The notes beneath the pieces were generated by a model. It was not told the DNA's origin. It saw nothing but the letters and a program-made list of their open reading frames with translations, and ran no database searches. This document shows positions 1,961 to 6,744 of a DNA stretch of 22,940 bases, piece after piece. The position numbers and the translations under genes are program-made. This stretch comes from a virus. The stretch is from IMG/VR virus record IMGVR_UViG_3300020411_003250, positions 1 through 22,940 of that record; one strand, given 5' to 3'. Position 1 is the stretch's first letter. Each line of letters starts with the position of its first letter.

Positions 1961-3565
1961 TTATTTTACCTTTTTTAAAAGTTTATGTGATGCTTTAAGC
2001 GCATTTTTTGATGCTCTTACTTTTGTAAATGCATCATCAGCTTGATTACTATTGACAACATCCATTAATTTTTCAACATCATTTATTGCATGATGTAATG
2101 TGTCTACAAGCGGACTAGAAACCTCTTTTAATTTTACATCTAAATCTGATTTTTTAAAATCTTTTAACTTTTTAACAACTGTACTCATCTGTCCGTATTT
2201 GCCAACAAAGAATCCTTGAGCAGATACACCTAATTCAATTTTTCCATCTTTCCAAACATAAAAGGGAAGAACAGCATCACCTTCAGCTGACTTTACCCAG
2301 TAAAAACATCCATAAATTGCTTTTGTAAATCCTCTCTTCATTTCTTTATGTTTTATAACTTTAATGCCTGCTTTTTTAAGTGCAGAATCTAAAAAACCTT
2401 TAATAGCTAATTTAGCTTGTGACGGTTCTTCTGGCTTTGGTGCTTCATTTATAGATTCACCCATTACCCAACCATCTTTATCCTTAAGATTTCTAAATTT
2501 TTCACCCATCTTAAGTAAATCCATTATATTTCTCATTTGGCTCATATGCCCATTAAGCATTGGTCGTCCAATTTTTTCTCTAATTGCGTTTGCCCAAGCT
2601 CTTTTATTCTTATCAGGGACAACTTTATGTTTTTTCATAAATTTTACAAGATCCTGATAATGCTCTACAAATGAGCCAAGATTAAGATCATAATTTCTTT
2701 CCCAAGAATTATCTGTTCCAAAATCTTTGTATGGATGAAGATCTTCGTTTATTTTATTCTCGTTAAATTTTTTATTTTTTAATGTATCTCTCATCCAATC
2801 TGCTAAGTCTGCAATGTATTCAATATTCTTTATAACTTCTTTATCGTCCTGTTTTTTTAGTGCCTTAACAAGTTCTTTAGCAGCCAACGGCATATATCTA
2901 CCACGCTTACTCAATTCAGAATAACCAGAAACTGTTATTTCTTCATTTACGTTTTCGTTTGCATTCTTCATCATTTGAGCAATCTTAATTAGTTTGTCTC
3001 TATCTGATTTTGATATACCTTTAAGCTGTCTATCTTTTGCAATCTTTTTTAATGTATCACCATACGCTTTTGTTGATTCTACTTTTGCACCACCGCCATA
3101 TAAATCTGCATATTTTTGTGCTGATGATTTTTCTTTACTCTTGGGAGCTTCTTTCTTTTTTGGCTTATCTTTGTTTTTGTTTTTAATTCTATCTATTGCC
3201 GCTTTTGCTTTATCTCTAATTCTTTGTATAATACCTTTTGCTCTTTTATGGTCTTTATGGTCTGGATTATTAAAAGCTTTTTTTACCGTTACGCCAGGGG
3301 AAATGGTTTTATCCATTTCTCTTTCTACAGCCGCCCGAGCCGCAGTTGCTATTACTGCCGGATTTTCTTTTAAAATAGATTCATTTTTTGCTTTGTAATT
3401 ATTGTCTATATAATCGTAAAATTCTCTTTTTTTACTATCATCTAACTCCGCCGGAGAATTTACACCAAATTTATCTAATGCAGATTTAAAAAATTTTTGA
3501 TAGGCCTCCCCATCTTCTTCATTAAATCTACTCATATGCTCTATAATTTTTGCATTAATCGACAT
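1961..3565 (-). CDS. Modular polyprotein-like protein with repeated (V/I)NE junctions (534 aa)
   Basis: I prefer ATG 3565 (MSINAKIIEHM) to the GTG one codon earlier because GGAG lies 6 nt upstream of the ATG. Modules, numbered from this ATG: 1-62, a helical acidic domain I recall from marine phage proteins (FNEEDGEAYQKFF, KFGVNSPAEL), ending ESILKE; 68-202, a very lysine-rich segment; then NENVNE (203-208), a helical module, NKINE (270-274), a helical module, ESINE (370-374), and a C-terminal alpha/beta domain with FYWVKSAEGDAVLPFYVWKDGK. The junctions end in V/I-N-E, like prohead-protease sites. A promoter-like motif lies upstream. Function unknown; a processed head-packaged polyprotein is the inference. 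Confidence 0.75.
   Translation of the reverse strand: MSINAKIIEHMSRFNEEDGEAYQKFFKSALDKFGVNSPAELDDSKKREFYDYIDNNYKAKNESILKENPAVIATAARAAVEREMDKTISPGVTVKKAFNNPDHKDHKRAKGIIQRIRDKAKAAIDRIKNKNKDKPKKKEAPKSKEKSSAQKYADLYGGGAKVESTKAYGDTLKKIAKDRQLKGISKSDRDKLIKIAQMMKNANENVNEEITVSGYSELSKRGRYMPLAAKELVKALKKQDDKEVIKNIEYIADLADWMRDTLKNKKFNENKINEDLHPYKDFGTDNSWERNYDLNLGSFVEHYQDLVKFMKKHKVVPDKNKRAWANAIREKIGRPMLNGHMSQMRNIMDLLKMGEKFRNLKDKDGWVMGESINEAPKPEEPSQAKLAIKGFLDSALKKAGIKVIKHKEMKRGFTKAIYGCFYWVKSAEGDAVLPFYVWKDGKIELGVSAQGFFVGKYGQMSTVVKKLKDFKKSDLDVKLKEVSSPLVDTLHHAINDVEKLMDVVNSNQADDAFTKVRASKNALKASHKLLKKVK
2444..2458 (-). repeat. ESINE junction repeat in the 534-aa gene
   Basis: The plus strand reads TTCATTTATAGATTC, encoding ESINE between a helical module and the C-terminal domain. 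It differs at one position from the first 15 bases of the copy at 1042 and at two from the copy at 5780. Confidence 0.7.
2744..2758 (-). repeat. KINE junction in the 534-aa gene
   Basis: The plus strand reads TTCGTTTATTTTATT, encoding NKINE, preceded in the protein by KKFNE. It is a weaker relative of the VNE/INE junctions and separates two helical modules. Confidence 0.45.
2942..2959 (-). repeat. NENVNE junction in the 534-aa gene
   Basis: The plus strand reads TTCATTTACGTTTTCGTT, encoding NENVNE at the end of the lysine-rich segment. It shares the TTCATTTAC core with the copies at 1042, 5531 and 5780. Confidence 0.6.
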
Positions 3566-3583
3566 CACAGTCTCCGTGGTTTT

Positions 3584-3593
3584 TTATAAATAT
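3584..3593 (-). promoter_or_regulatory. Promoter-like motif ATATTTATAA upstream of the 534-aa gene
   Basis: On the coding strand the gap between 3612 and 3565 contains ATATTTATAA, ending 18 nt before the ATG, with GGAG between them. The same ten bases, at nearly the same distance, precede the genes starting at 11348 and 12486, and a one-mismatch copy precedes 14564. AT-richness makes chance copies likely (one occurs inside the 8905-10185 gene). Its reverse complement contains TATAAATA, the T4 late-promoter word, but on the wrong strand. Confidence 0.4.
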
Positions 3594-3611
3594 TAAGTTT
3601 TTACCAAAATA

Positions 3612-4268
3612 CTATTTTTTTTGATTTCTACTAACTAATGCATTTGATACTTGTGCACTAAGTACAGATTGTATTGTAAAATAAAGTGATGGGTTCCTTC
3701 TTAATAACTCTTTGAATTCATGTTGCTTCCAAACTAAACATTCTGTATCATGTTTAACAATACATGTCGCAGTTGCCGGCTTCTCTGTAAGAAATGACAT
3801 CTCACCAACAAATTGACCATCTTTTAGTTCTGCAACTTTCTTTCCCTTCACTGCTACATCAACAGTTCCATTATAAATTAATACAAGATCTGGTACTAAT
3901 GCACCTTGTCTAGTTATTTTCTCACCTGATCTGAAATGTTGCCATTGTGCAATCTTACTAATCTTTAGATATTCAACTGGCGTCATTTCACTAAATAATG
4001 TTTCATATAACTCGCTATCTTTATCGTCCATCTTTACAGGACGTTTTTCATAAATAATAACTGCTATGTGATAAAGATTTACTGCAACAAATACAATATT
4101 CCAGCCTATTGGGAGCCACATTGGCTCGATAGGTATAAAATAATTGTATAGTATAGAAAACGCGCTAGCTAATACTGATAGAAGTCTTAAATATAAAATA
4201 TCCTTGACTAAAAATGAAAATGCAATCAGTCCAAAAGCTAAGTGTCCTGCTATTGTTGCTATGTTCAT
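3612..4268 (-). CDS. Popeye-like membrane protein with cyclic-nucleotide-binding fold (218 aa)
   Basis: Three hydrophobic segments (about residues 5-21, 25-45 and 50-72) are followed by a short linker and a cyclic-nucleotide-binding-type beta roll at about 95-210. Key features are RSGEKITRQG (113-122), LVLIYNGTVDV, and the phosphate-cassette region GQFVGEMSFLTEKPATATC (151-169), then a C-terminal helix. This architecture, and text such as YNYFIPIEPMWLPIGWN, matches bacterial Popeye-domain proteins as I remember them. The cassette keeps the Glu but has PATAT instead of the Arg of classical cAMP-binding domains, so the ligand is uncertain. Its start overlaps the stop of the upstream two-TM gene (TAATG). 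It is probably a host-derived gene; its role in infection is unknown. Confidence 0.8.
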   Translation of the reverse strand: MNIATIAGHLAFGLIAFSFLVKDILYLRLLSVLASAFSILYNYFIPIEPMWLPIGWNIVFVAVNLYHIAVIIYEKRPVKMDDKDSELYETLFSEMTPVEYLKISKIAQWQHFRSGEKITRQGALVPDLVLIYNGTVDVAVKGKKVAELKDGQFVGEMSFLTEKPATATCIVKHDTECLVWKQHEFKELLRRNPSLYFTIQSVLSAQVSNALVSRNQKK

Positions 4269-4603
4269 TAGTCATCAGCGTGTTCTAGTAATTTGACATC
4301 ATCCTCTGCGTTATTAAACCAAAAGTCAATTACTTTAGCAAATGATCCAACGAAACCGCCTAACATTAATAGTAAGATTTCTTTCCATCCACCTACGACA
4401 TCAACACCATTGCTCATAAAATAAATCATAAGTGATAGTATAGCAGCGAACAATGAGACAACAACAATACTGATTAACCATTTTTTGTTTTGTCTAAACT
4501 TTATTATATCTACTAACTGTTGATTAATAGCATGCTTTTGATCCTGTATGTGAAAGTCATCTTCTTTTTTGCTTGAGCTTTTCGAAAGTTTATCTACTGG
4601 CAT
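4268..4603 (-). CDS. Two-TM, holin-like membrane protein (111 aa)
   Basis: I choose ATG 4603 (MPVDKLSKSSSKKEDD), which has GAGG 8 nt upstream. A TTG-initiated form would reach 4630 and overlap the Hc1-like gene. A charged N-terminal region of about 40 residues is followed by two hydrophobic segments (ISIVVVSLFAAILSLMIYFM and ILLLMLGGFVGSFAKVIDFWF) and an acidic tail. The second segment with its FWF end and short charged tail resembles some phage holins, but a separate GTA-type holin is present, so a holin call is tentative. The stop overlaps the Popeye-like gene. Confidence 0.7.
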   Translation of the reverse strand: MPVDKLSKSSSKKEDDFHIQDQKHAINQQLVDIIKFRQNKKWLISIVVVSLFAAILSLMIYFMSNGVDVVGGWKEILLLMLGGFVGSFAKVIDFWFNNAEDDVKLLEHADD

Positions 4604-4613
4604 CTTATTATCC

Positions 4614-4793
4614 TCATTTACATTCAGCAACTGAAGCCTTTCTATATTCAGTTACTAGTTTCTTAATTTCACCAATAGCCTTACGAGCTCTTCCAGCTGC
4701 AGCCTTAACGCCTTTTTCTGAAAACTTATGGTGATTTTCATCAAAAATATTCCACTGTTCTTTTATTTGAACATATAATTCCTTACTTGACAT
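4614..4793 (-). CDS. Hc1-type histone H1-like protein (59 aa)
   Basis: The 59-residue product starts MSSKELYVQIKEQW. It has AGGAG 7 nt before ATG 4793 and stops 10 nt before the next start. The C-terminal half, FSEKGVKAAAGRARKAIGEI followed by KKLVTEYRKASVAE, closely resembles the core of Hc1-family proteins (Chlamydia Hc1 and small Bacteroidota proteins), where (E/R)GNKAAA-x-R-x-R is the hallmark. It lacks the long Lys/Ala/Pro tail of chlamydial Hc1. Such proteins bind DNA and compact chromatin. In a phage it could condense viral or host DNA, or be packaged. The family call is from memory of the motif. Confidence 0.7.
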   Translation of the reverse strand: MSSKELYVQIKEQWNIFDENHHKFSEKGVKAAAGRARKAIGEIKKLVTEYRKASVAECK

Positions 4794-4802
4794 TTCTATC
4801 TC

Positions 4803-5084
4803 CTATTTGATATAATCATCATCATGTTTTAAATAACCAAACCAGCCACCAAATTTTGTAGCTGCATGTCTTGCAACATCTTCAAAATCTTTATATGTAT
4901 TCCATAATACATCATGACCAACTGGCGCACCTCCGTGCATTTTCTTATAATCTTTTGCAATCTCTTGCAGTAATTTAACTGCCTTATTGCACTTATTTTC
5001 TAATTTTTTTACATCGCTCTTCGAAGCTGCGTAATCTTTTGGATCCCACGCTTCTGATAATTCTAAAAATTTACTTAGTTTCAT
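4803..5084 (-). CDS. Small protein with MKLSKFLELSE leader (93 aa), putative head-packaged protein
   Basis: The N-terminus MKLSKFLELSE-AWDP is an 11-residue leader ending in L-S-E, comparable with MIKLKDLLFE of the downstream cluster. The body is helical and lysine-rich (DVKKLENKCNKAVKLLQEIA) with an aromatic/Gly end (KFGGWFGYLKHDDDYIK). No family is recognised. Its ATG overlaps the stop of the 367-aa modular gene (ATGA) and its stop lies within the ribosome-binding region of the Hc1-like gene, so the three are probably co-translated. Confidence 0.72.
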   Translation of the reverse strand: MKLSKFLELSEAWDPKDYAASKSDVKKLENKCNKAVKLLQEIAKDYKKMHGGAPVGHDVLWNTYKDFEDVARHAATKFGGWFGYLKHDDDYIK

Positions 5085-6184
5085 TTTAATTCTCTCTCAG
5101 CATCAGGTATAGCTGGCGGTTGCCAATGATATTCTTGTTTCTCTGGCCAACCAATCATTTCACCTGTTCTTCCATTAATTATTTGAAATTTTGGCACCTT
5201 ACCAGACAATATTGTTTTCATAGCTTTTGCCATAGCAGCTTTAAGCTCTTTCTTTGATTTTGCATGAACGTGTCCGTACTTGTCGACTTCTTCACCAATA
5301 TTTACGGACTCTTTAATTTTCTTTCCACCTTTTGATTTTAACATATAATAATCCAATTGTTTTTGATCATAAGAAGCCCATCCAGGTGGAAATTTCTTCA
5401 CTGTCCAAGTCATCTTATTAAAATCAGGTTTTCCTTTTATACGATTTCTGCTTAAATGAGCATCTAACTCATCCATATCTTTGTTAGTAAATCCTTTAAA
5501 TTGATAAACAGGGTATGAGCGTGCGGCTATTTCATTTACACCTTCTTTCTTTTTTAATTTTTTCATAGCATCCCTACTCTTCTTGGCCTTCTTATTATAC
5601 TTGTCTAAGTTTTTCATAAATTTATCAGCCAAACCTTCATTAGCTTCTGGATAAAATCTATCTAATTGATCCCACCATTTTTTAAATGCTCTGATTGCTT
5701 TTTGGTTTCCATGTTTTTGGAGTGCCTTACTCATTTGTACTAACGCATCATGTGTTTTATCATACGCTGTATCAATATTTTCATTTACGGATTCAAATTT
5801 TTTCATAATCTTTTTTACCTTTTTATTTCCTTGCAAGTCTCTCCAAATGTCTGGTTTATATTTTCTCATATACATAAGATAATCATACATGTCCTTATCA
5901 GACATTTTAGCTTCTTTCATTCCTATTTTTTTCATAGTTTGTGACATCTTTTTTATTGCTGGAATTTTTACACCCATATCACCGCCTCTATAATCATGAT
6001 AGTCTAATGCTATTTGCCCAACTTTTGTAAGAGATGCTTTAGGCATCATATCTTTAAAATAACTTATGACCTTATTAAAATCAGATGTTTTTTTCGCATC
6101 ATACTTAGGAAATTTTTTATTTAAATCCTTTATGATAGCAAATGCTATTTTTTCTAATCTATTTTCTTCTAACGTATTTTTCAT
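5081..6184 (-). CDS. Modular polyprotein-like protein with (V/I)NE junctions (367 aa)
   Basis: Four modules are separated by Glu-ending junctions. Residues 1-129 start MKNTLEEN and are helical, with a segment rich in Lys and Met. FESVNE (130-135) leads to a second helical module with AIRAFKKWWDQLDRFYPE. EGVNE (214-218) leads to a module with YPVYQFKGFTNKDMDELDAH. ESVNIGEE (292-299) leads to a C-terminal module with FQIINGRTGEMIGWPEKQEY. No module matches a family I know. FESVNE is identical to that in the 85-aa protein. The start has AGGA 7 nt upstream and the stop overlaps the 93-aa gene (ATGA). Processing by a prohead protease into head-packaged pieces is inferred. Confidence 0.75.
   Translation of the reverse strand: MKNTLEENRLEKIAFAIIKDLNKKFPKYDAKKTSDFNKVISYFKDMMPKASLTKVGQIALDYHDYRGGDMGVKIPAIKKMSQTMKKIGMKEAKMSDKDMYDYLMYMRKYKPDIWRDLQGNKKVKKIMKKFESVNENIDTAYDKTHDALVQMSKALQKHGNQKAIRAFKKWWDQLDRFYPEANEGLADKFMKNLDKYNKKAKKSRDAMKKLKKKEGVNEIAARSYPVYQFKGFTNKDMDELDAHLSRNRIKGKPDFNKMTWTVKKFPPGWASYDQKQLDYYMLKSKGGKKIKESVNIGEEVDKYGHVHAKSKKELKAAMAKAMKTILSGKVPKFQIINGRTGEMIGWPEKQEYHWQPPAIPDAERELK
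5288..5311 (-). repeat. ESVNIGEE junction in the 367-aa gene
   Basis: It encodes ESVNIGEE between modules three and four. It keeps ESVN but has IGE inserted, giving an I-x-E motif of its own. Confidence 0.5.
5531..5545 (-). repeat. EGVNE junction in the 367-aa gene
   Basis: The plus strand reads TTCATTTACACCTTC, sharing the first ten bases with the copy at 1042. It encodes EGVNE at the end of a lysine-rich stretch, between modules two and three. Confidence 0.6.
5780..5797 (-). repeat. FESVNE junction repeat, copy in the 367-aa gene
   Basis: The plus strand reads TTCATTTACGGATTCAAA, encoding FESVNE between modules one and two. Sixteen of 18 bases match the copy in the 85-aa gene nearly 5 kb away. 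Confidence 0.75.
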
Positions 6185-6223: not shown

Positions 6224-6319
6224 TCACGTCTCGTTCTTCTTTTTCTTTTCCCACTTCTTAGCCAGATCTGGCTCATTAGCGTGCATCCATCTTCTCTGTT
6301 TTTCTGATTTGAAAGGCAT
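6224..6319 (-). CDS. Small conserved phage protein MPFKSEKQRRWM (31 aa)
   Basis: The 31-residue product runs MPFKSEKQRRWMHANEPDLA and ends in a lysine-rich tail. The MPFKS-x-x-QRRWM/Y-x-A-x-x-P-x-x-A-x-x-W pattern is one I recall as a frequent tiny protein in marine and other tailed phages, of unknown function. The start overlaps the stop of the holin (TAATG), indicating coupled translation, and the gene fills the space before the 367-aa gene. Confidence 0.75.
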   Translation of the reverse strand: MPFKSEKQRRWMHANEPDLAKKWEKKKKNET

Positions 6320-6744
6320 TACTTAGTGACCTTTTTTACTTTCTCTATTGAACGACCAGCAAAATAAGCCGCATATACAGTCATTAATAATGTTTGATAA
6401 ACTGGTACATATGCTGCACCAATTGTAAAATCTTCACCACCAACTTGTAGATTTCCATCAAAAATACTTAATACAGTAAATATACCTGTTAGGAAAACTA
6501 ATGTAAGTGGTCTTATATTTTTTGATAGCCAACTACCATGTTTCATGTCAGCTTCCCATCTTGCAGAAACTTGTGCTTGTGCAGCTTGCTCTGCTTGTAT
6601 AAGTATTGTTTCTAATTTTTGTTTTGCTTCTGCTTTTTCTTCACCTGACATATGTAGGTCATCTATTATTCCACCTACCTGTTTAAGTGTGTCACCTCCC
6701 AATAGTCCTCCTACTGCTTTACCTACTGTTCCTAATAAACTCAT
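6319..6744 (-). CDS. Holin, GTA-type 3TM family (141 aa)
   Basis: A Gly-rich N-terminus (MSLLGTVGKAVGGLLGG) is followed by an amphipathic helix with acidic and Ala/Gln-rich stretches. SWLSKNIRPLTLVFLTGIFT (71-90) then opens the first clear membrane helix, and a second lies at about 108-128 (ending VYAAYFAGRSIEKVKK). The W-L-x-K-N-I-R-P-L signature is typical of the 'holin of 3TMs, for gene-transfer release' family (PF11351). Members permeabilise the inner membrane at lysis or release. The start has AGGAG 8 nt upstream. No endolysin is recognisable in the window. Confidence in the family is high; holin activity is by homology. Confidence 0.88.
   Translation of the reverse strand: MSLLGTVGKAVGGLLGGDTLKQVGGIIDDLHMSGEEKAEAKQKLETILIQAEQAAQAQVSARWEADMKHGSWLSKNIRPLTLVFLTGIFTVLSIFDGNLQVGGEDFTIGAAYVPVYQTLLMTVYAAYFAGRSIEKVKKVTK

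Follow-up and report, generated by a model that had tools for sequence, protein, structure and literature searches.

The DNA analysed here is a virus record of the IMG/VR collection (IMGVR_UViG_3300020411_003250), of which one strand of 22.9 kb was read (the window). Two of its genes, both on the minus strand, code for proteins of 534 and 367 amino acids (aa) that appear to be modular polyproteins. The gene of the 534-aa protein occupies positions 1961-3565 (ATG at 3565; the open reading frame, ORF, of 1961-3568 starts from GTG) and was assigned by its enrichment in junction motifs and by modules common with other polyproteins; that of the 367-aa protein (5081-6184) was assigned by its ORF and the same enrichment. 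A preliminary description of the range 1961-6184 had proposed polyproteins whose segments are separated by repeated (V/I)NE junctions. Both ORFs and every motif named in it were found in the window. The range contains both polyprotein genes but also takes in unrelated genes at 3612-4793, and the two polyproteins are therefore separate genes. In the 534-aa protein NENVNE ends at residue 208, NKINE at 274 and ESINE at 374. The 367-aa protein contains FESVNE and EGVNE, ending at residues 135 and 218, and ESVNIGEE (292-299), and FESVNE is also present at residue 33 of an 85-aa protein (883-1140). Together the two polyproteins contain five [VIL]NE motifs, whereas 0.55 would be expected from composition, and none of 2000 shuffled sequences reached five. 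Further module starts, recognized by homology, are preceded by ILKE (67) and KLKE (481) in the 534-aa protein and by GMKE (91) and LEE (7) in the 367-aa protein. In a Pfam search with ten window proteins the only true match was obtained with a 59-aa Hc1-like protein, no domain scoring above cut-off in either polyprotein, and a megablast search of the phage collection with the window gave no match.

Relatives were found by searching with the 367-aa protein. Eleven loci (designated, like those added later, by L numbers) gave partial matches only, mostly to residues ~195-296, and the matching segments resided in quite different proteins rich in KESVNE or KESVDE. The set was widened to about 90 contigs by a DNA-pattern scan for KKIKESVNE and a scan with an alignment of the protease described below. 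In these relatives segments of the window proteins reside in proteins of 467-839 aa studded with ES(V/I)(N/D)E, most of which begin with DUF3008. A scan of bacterial and archaeal genomes yielded matches solely in contigs of mixed-taxa metagenome bins. A cultured relative, Flavobacterium phage immuto (vB_FspM_immuto; host Flavobacterium sp. LMO8), encodes upstream of its terminase an 841-aa protein, annotated 'hypothetical protein', with five [VIL]NE motifs (0.6 expected; 0/2000 shuffles reached five). In immuto35A_191 the predicted cuts lie behind Glu 198, 256, 487, 532 and 610.

Comparison with the relatives delimited seven modules in the 534-aa protein (all coordinates on the minus strand). 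Module m1 (aa 1-67, 3365-3565) ends in ESILKE, matches phrog_28651 and also makes up the C-terminal portion of proteins of ~210-230 aa in L105, L118, L120 and L122. Module m2 (NPAVIATAARAAV..., aa 68-163, 3077-3364), defined by homology in differing contexts, is preceded by ILKE in the window and by VINE, TINE, VVSE, LLRE and ILSE in five other contexts. Module m3 (STKAYGDTLKKIAKDRQLKGIS..., aa 164-208, 2942-3076), which ends in NENVNE, has matches in at least eight relatives, again in differing contexts. Module m4 (SGYSELSKRG..., aa 209-274, 2744-2941) ends in NKINE; it follows NENVNE in the window, stands alone behind MVKLQELLNE in L003 and follows KAINE in L067. Module m5 (DLHPYKDFGTDNSW..., aa 275-374, 2444-2743) ends in ESINE, and its start was seen after INE, ISE, IKE and VDE. 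Module m6 (aa 375-481, 2123-2443), ending in KLKE, is the first module behind the leader MVKLRELITE in L099 and is followed by ESVNE in L036. For the C-terminal segment m7 (aa 482-534, 1964-2122) no relative was found.

The 367-aa protein was divided in the same way, likewise on the minus strand. A possible short leader, MKNTLEE (aa 1-7, 6164-6184), precedes n1 (aa 8-91, 5912-6163, ending in GMKE), which begins after ESVNE in L086 and is there flanked by ESVNE on both sides. Module n2 (KMSDKDMYDYLMYMRKYKPD..., aa 92-135, 5780-5911) ends in FESVNE; it was found behind GIGYDSFESVNE in L099 and within a DUF3008 polyprotein in L013. Module n3 (IDTAYDKTHDALV..., aa 136-183, 5636-5779) ends in EANE and is joined behind the tail of m4 in L026, and n4 (aa 184-218, 5531-5635), which ends in EGVNE, has a weak relative in L120. 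Module n5 (VYQFKGFTNKDMDELDA...KKIKESVNIGEE, aa 219-299, 5288-5530) recurs in at least ten other loci, and no relative was found for the C-terminal module n6 (aa 300-367, 5084-5287). Modules n1 and n5 are possible distant paralogues (LDxxFxxY...DFNKV).

Shuffling of domains between junctions, which the preliminary description had suggested looking for in related phages, was seen: in L002 the m5 segment of the 534-aa protein (LDPYKDFGTDNSW...) is fused directly to n5 of the 367-aa protein. The proposed likeness between junctions and leader ends was borne out as well, the same modules being found behind either. SGYSxL-type modules follow MVKLQELLNE or NENVNE, and KCWKGYEKKG follows DLNE within the L003 polyprotein and MIKLKELISE at the beginning of a 113-aa protein in L078. 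RKFGEPLPTL is located, after a few residues, behind MIKLRDLLNE in L120 and behind KKIKESVNE in L043. Similarly, GPDADLFKKLG follows FESVNE in the 85-aa window protein, and GPDKDLFKKLG follows NNESVNE inside a 665-aa chain of L047. The leaders themselves can be aligned with certain internal junctions (KKIKESVNE). Since leaders and junctions are interchangeable before the same modules, the comparison suggests that the polyprotein chains originate when neighbouring genes with leaders fuse. The relatives thus lend good support to the modular polyprotein reading. In L036 (1-3036) a 1011-aa protein upstream of the terminase is built of a kinase (zeta-toxin/AAA_33-like), a cytidylyltransferase and other segments linked by SVNE, SLNE and DINE, an enzymatic polyprotein in the same style.

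The prohead protease of phage T4, gp21, cuts after L/I-x-E, and exchange of the Glu for Asp in the T4 leader is reported to abolish cutting (PMC9026906). Among 95 module starts with a boundary Glu, collected from differing contexts, the third residue before the boundary (P3) was V, I, L or M in 76 (80%), as compared with 30% at any Glu of these proteins, while P2 was free, with Asn in only 39 of the 95. Between polyproteins, 422 homology breakpoints with unrelated flanks were examined; 43% of them had [VIL]xE no more than 9 aa away on each side, in contrast to 6% for random positions. Because module starts show an aliphatic residue at P3 and a free middle residue, the (V/I)NE consensus proposed at the outset is too narrow as a full rule. 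The junctions appear to follow the gp21 rule, and (V/I)NE is best regarded as the commonest form of the wider aliphatic-x-E site.

A protease of this family is encoded next to the polyproteins of the relatives. Peptidase_S77 (PF03420, the T4 gp21 family) was detected above the curated cut-off in 10 of 12 module-bearing contigs, and the protease profile matched the solved T4 protease 5jbl (E=3e-20). In 20 of 21 close contigs the next gene starts 1-4 bases past the gp21 stop codon, and wherever the contig is long enough this gene encodes the polyprotein. Genes selected by position alone (next after gp21) contained 33 ES[VIL][ND]E motifs, as against 0.05 expected. The gene order in the close contigs is TerL, portal gp20, a 281-aa protein, two small genes, gp21, polyprotein, small leader-bearing genes, an actin-like gene, gp22-like scaffold and gp23 (the names gp20, gp22 and TerL were given from sequence reading and annotated relatives). 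In L099 relatives of m3, m6, n2 and the 87-aa window protein p87 all lie within 4 kb of gp21. The gp23 precursors of the lineage contain similar sequences (ARQLISE/NSK, AKQLINE/FTT, ARELIKE/ASA, AKQIVSE/ANV and AKQLISE/ANR; the slash marks the boundary), and in L004 the motif is located ~20 residues upstream of a core that aligns with mature T4 gp23 from residue 29. By this comparison the capsid precursor appears to carry the motif near the T4 cleavage position.

Two features of the protease itself (L037:5688-6284, alignment A1) are candidate self-cleavage sites: an invariant Glu in a V/M-x-E loop after SSRGxGS, and the sequence PVNE[GS]V, usually present near the C-terminus. The actin gene of L045 (13544-14566), located just before gp22/gp23 in the head cluster, belongs to the Volactin family (PF25216, E=9e-72), and similar genes are present in L060, L074, L078, L094, L099 and L102.

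The modules have a median length of 76 aa and a median net charge of +8, and the isoelectric point is above 9 in 93% of them, compared with 39% of the other proteins in the same contigs. For several of them the match to a small family (phrog_9437, phrog_9411, phrog_6437 or DUF3008) covers much of the profile. The domains had been called effector-like; this term found no support, as no enzymatic or toxin domain was found in either window protein and the modules are small basic domains. Judged from these properties, their likeness is closer to the internal proteins of T4 than to enzymes or toxins. Foldseek searches with AlphaFold2 models of the 367-aa protein and the L037 polyprotein gave nothing significant. 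A joint MAFFT alignment of module fragments, in which the modules were misaligned, was rejected and left unused for the 534-aa protein.

Small proteins with leaders of the T4 type (~10 residues ending in aliphatic-x-E) are encoded around the two genes, all on the minus strand. The 85-aa protein (883-1140) consists of the leader MIKLKEILFE, a linker (NKND...GIGYDSFESVNE) and a domain starting with GPDADLFKKLGK. The leader of p87 (623-886) is MIKLKNLIVQE, and its L099 relative is located 1.7 kb from gp21. The 110-aa protein (1137-1469; leader MIKLKDLLFE) has a relative at L013:6348-6641, and the 93-aa protein (4803-5084; leader MKLSKFLELSE) has one in L013 behind MVSLKDFLVE. The 145-aa protein (1522-1959), related to a protein in L026, has a longer leader than the others, MKIKKSQLKRIIKEGIRVVLNE. 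The preliminary description had supposed that one packaging signal would deliver several cargoes. On the 534-aa and 367-aa proteins no clear instance of a MIKLKxLLxE leader was found; MSINAKIIE and MKNTLEE fit loosely. A cyanophage cytidylyltransferase with such a leader, T4-GC190 (MKKFSAFLNE in Syn30), has been identified in purified virions of S-SM1 (PMC3037559), a finding in favour of the idea that these leaders mark head cargo.

The other genes between and beside the polyprotein genes are of different kinds. The Hc1-like protein (4614-4793, minus strand; PF07432, E=1.3e-15) resembles histone H1 and is likely to condense DNA. The gene at 3612-4268 (minus strand) encodes a membrane protein with, as read from the sequence, an apparent cyclic-nucleotide-binding domain behind it. 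Close counterparts of 4268-4630 (DQKHAINQQLVDIIKFRQNKKW) and of the holin-like 6319-6744 come immediately after the polyprotein in L045 and L037.

The modularity, the reuse of modules, the motif, the protease gene adjacent in relatives and the occurrence of the same motif in the capsid protein can be read from the sequences, and they point to a common explanation. We consider it likely that the window proteins are head-interior precursors of a T4-like phage, strings of small basic domains cut by gp21. Each chain would consist of such domains separated by aliphatic-x-E sites, often ESVNE. The chains would enter the prohead, where the phage's gp21-type serine protease would cut after Glu and set the domains free as individual internal proteins, in the way that gp21 of T4 removes targeting leaders from internal proteins. 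The products would be retained in the mature head and ejected into the host, where they probably serve in DNA association or early host interaction. Other phages encode the same domains either singly, after a capsid-targeting leader, or as parts of a polyprotein, reshuffled at the junctions. With more reservation, we favour the broader view that T4-like phages load many internal proteins by means of gp21-processed polyproteins assembled from an exchangeable stock of modules. Each junction would then be both a cleavage site and a recombination border, and swapping cassettes in one gene would change the injected set.

Several observations weigh against these views. The gp21 gene is not on the 22.9-kb window fragment, and the connection is made through the relatives and through shared tail and cargo genes: a window tail protein matches gp21-bearing records (G016, G018, immuto and Mel-JY01), and of the 2488-aa tail protein the C-terminal part matched such records while the search with the N-terminal part was empty. 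The module-start signatures were picked by hand, and their contexts are partly non-independent. At some borders no clean aliphatic-x-E is present; the HNH-like module, for example, often has RLKKE at its end, and P3 is Lys in 12 of the 95 starts. An earlier, unfiltered breakpoint test gave only 18% versus 10%, probably because BLAST alignments run through shared neighbours, and was replaced by the test with unrelated flanks. The AlphaFold2 models, with mean values of the predicted local distance difference test (pLDDT) of 57 (367-aa protein) and 48 (L037), were too poor for a test of disorder: junctions 218 and 292 of the former and 82, 182, 236, 419 and 474 of the latter had pLDDT below 50, a weak result because the same is true of 40-58% of each chain.

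It is possible, though rather unlikely, that the chains are scaffold-like prohead core proteins chopped by gp21 at the same sites, the pieces being waste that mostly leaves the head. T4 gp22, gp67 and gp68 similarly have several gp21 sites per protein and a gene beside gp21; gp22 and two other core proteins are cut to several fragments, which mostly leave (PMC9026906). The position of the polyprotein gene between gp21 and gp22 in the head-gene cluster of the relatives would fit such a role, as would the immuto gp22 scaffold (L125:14967-16208), in which a tandem duplicated module (GFEQWLDSVSAQMDKFGKNNPTIQ) follows GVNE and NLEE. However, a separate gp22-like scaffold is encoded, and the modules, unlike the mostly discarded T4 pieces, form distinct conserved families, met again as leader-bearing proteins on their own, as stand-alone small families (phrog_9437, phrog_9411 and phrog_6437) and as genes in non-T4-like phages. 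Their content also turns over fast, unlike a scaffold. That the chains are never cut, ESVNE being a flexible linker or a repeated scaffold-binding motif and the virion containing multi-domain proteins, seems improbable. KKIKESVNE junctions resemble leaders over several residues before the Glu and could therefore be targeting signals. Against this, conservation falls on precisely P3 and P1, the positions set by the gp21 rule, while the surroundings vary, the capsid precursor has the same motif where it is expected to be cut, and the gene follows the protease gene within a few bases. The least probable of the explanations is that the chains belong to the ordinary polyvalent proteins (Iyer et al. 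2017), conflict proteins of several domains that are injected and whose processing, where there is any, is the work of a protease of their own. Polyvalent proteins are likewise multi-domain, shuffled and thought to be virion-borne, and the L036 protein unites a zeta-toxin-like kinase with a cytidylyltransferase. They have large enzymatic domains, some with an internal metallopeptidase, and in the part of the source available junctions of the gp21 type, repeated along the chain, are not described (PMC5512222). By Pfam the window proteins contain neither a protease nor any known enzymatic domain, so that both hallmarks, an internal (metallo)peptidase and several enzymatic domains, are missing from them.

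Proteolytic head maturation, targeting leaders and core proteins cut at many sites are known from T4, phiKZ and SPN3US, and the gp21-processed strings proposed here share features with several such systems. Internal proteins IPI-IPIII and Alt of T4 are alike in the short leader ending in aliphatic-x-E, the head-cluster protease of the same family and the small basic cargo; they differ in having one cargo and one leader per gene, whereas here several shuffling modules form a chain with a site at each border. In SPN3US and phiKZ a gp21-family protease (gp245/gp175) cuts head proteins after Glu at many sites, repeatedly inside propeptides (PMC10052503), but these propeptides belong to one mature protein and are not strings of unrelated modules. 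The cyanophage protein T4-GC119 (e.g. SSM2_109; L131:3698-5824) is a mosaic that has modules in common with these polyproteins (KKCWPGYEKKG, EAWVQSKITKAADYLDSAADY), and parts of it match 502 phage records. S-B43 has a related protein that is annotated as structural. Unlike the window polyproteins, T4-GC119 has no excess of [VIL]NE (1 vs 0.4 expected).

The processing of polyproteins is characteristic of RNA viruses and retroviruses, and we know of no described phage that makes head cargo as a polyprotein. The open-licence PubMed Central texts searched contained no description of a string of exchangeable internal-protein modules processed by gp21. The cultured relative immuto makes the question of cleavage testable. 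If true, the proposal would add a novel route by which a virus particle is loaded with several proteins, and aliphatic-x-E borders beside gp21 would be a ruler with which unannotated head proteins of environmental T4-like phages could be found and delimited. It would also explain how the head proteins of such phages diversify.

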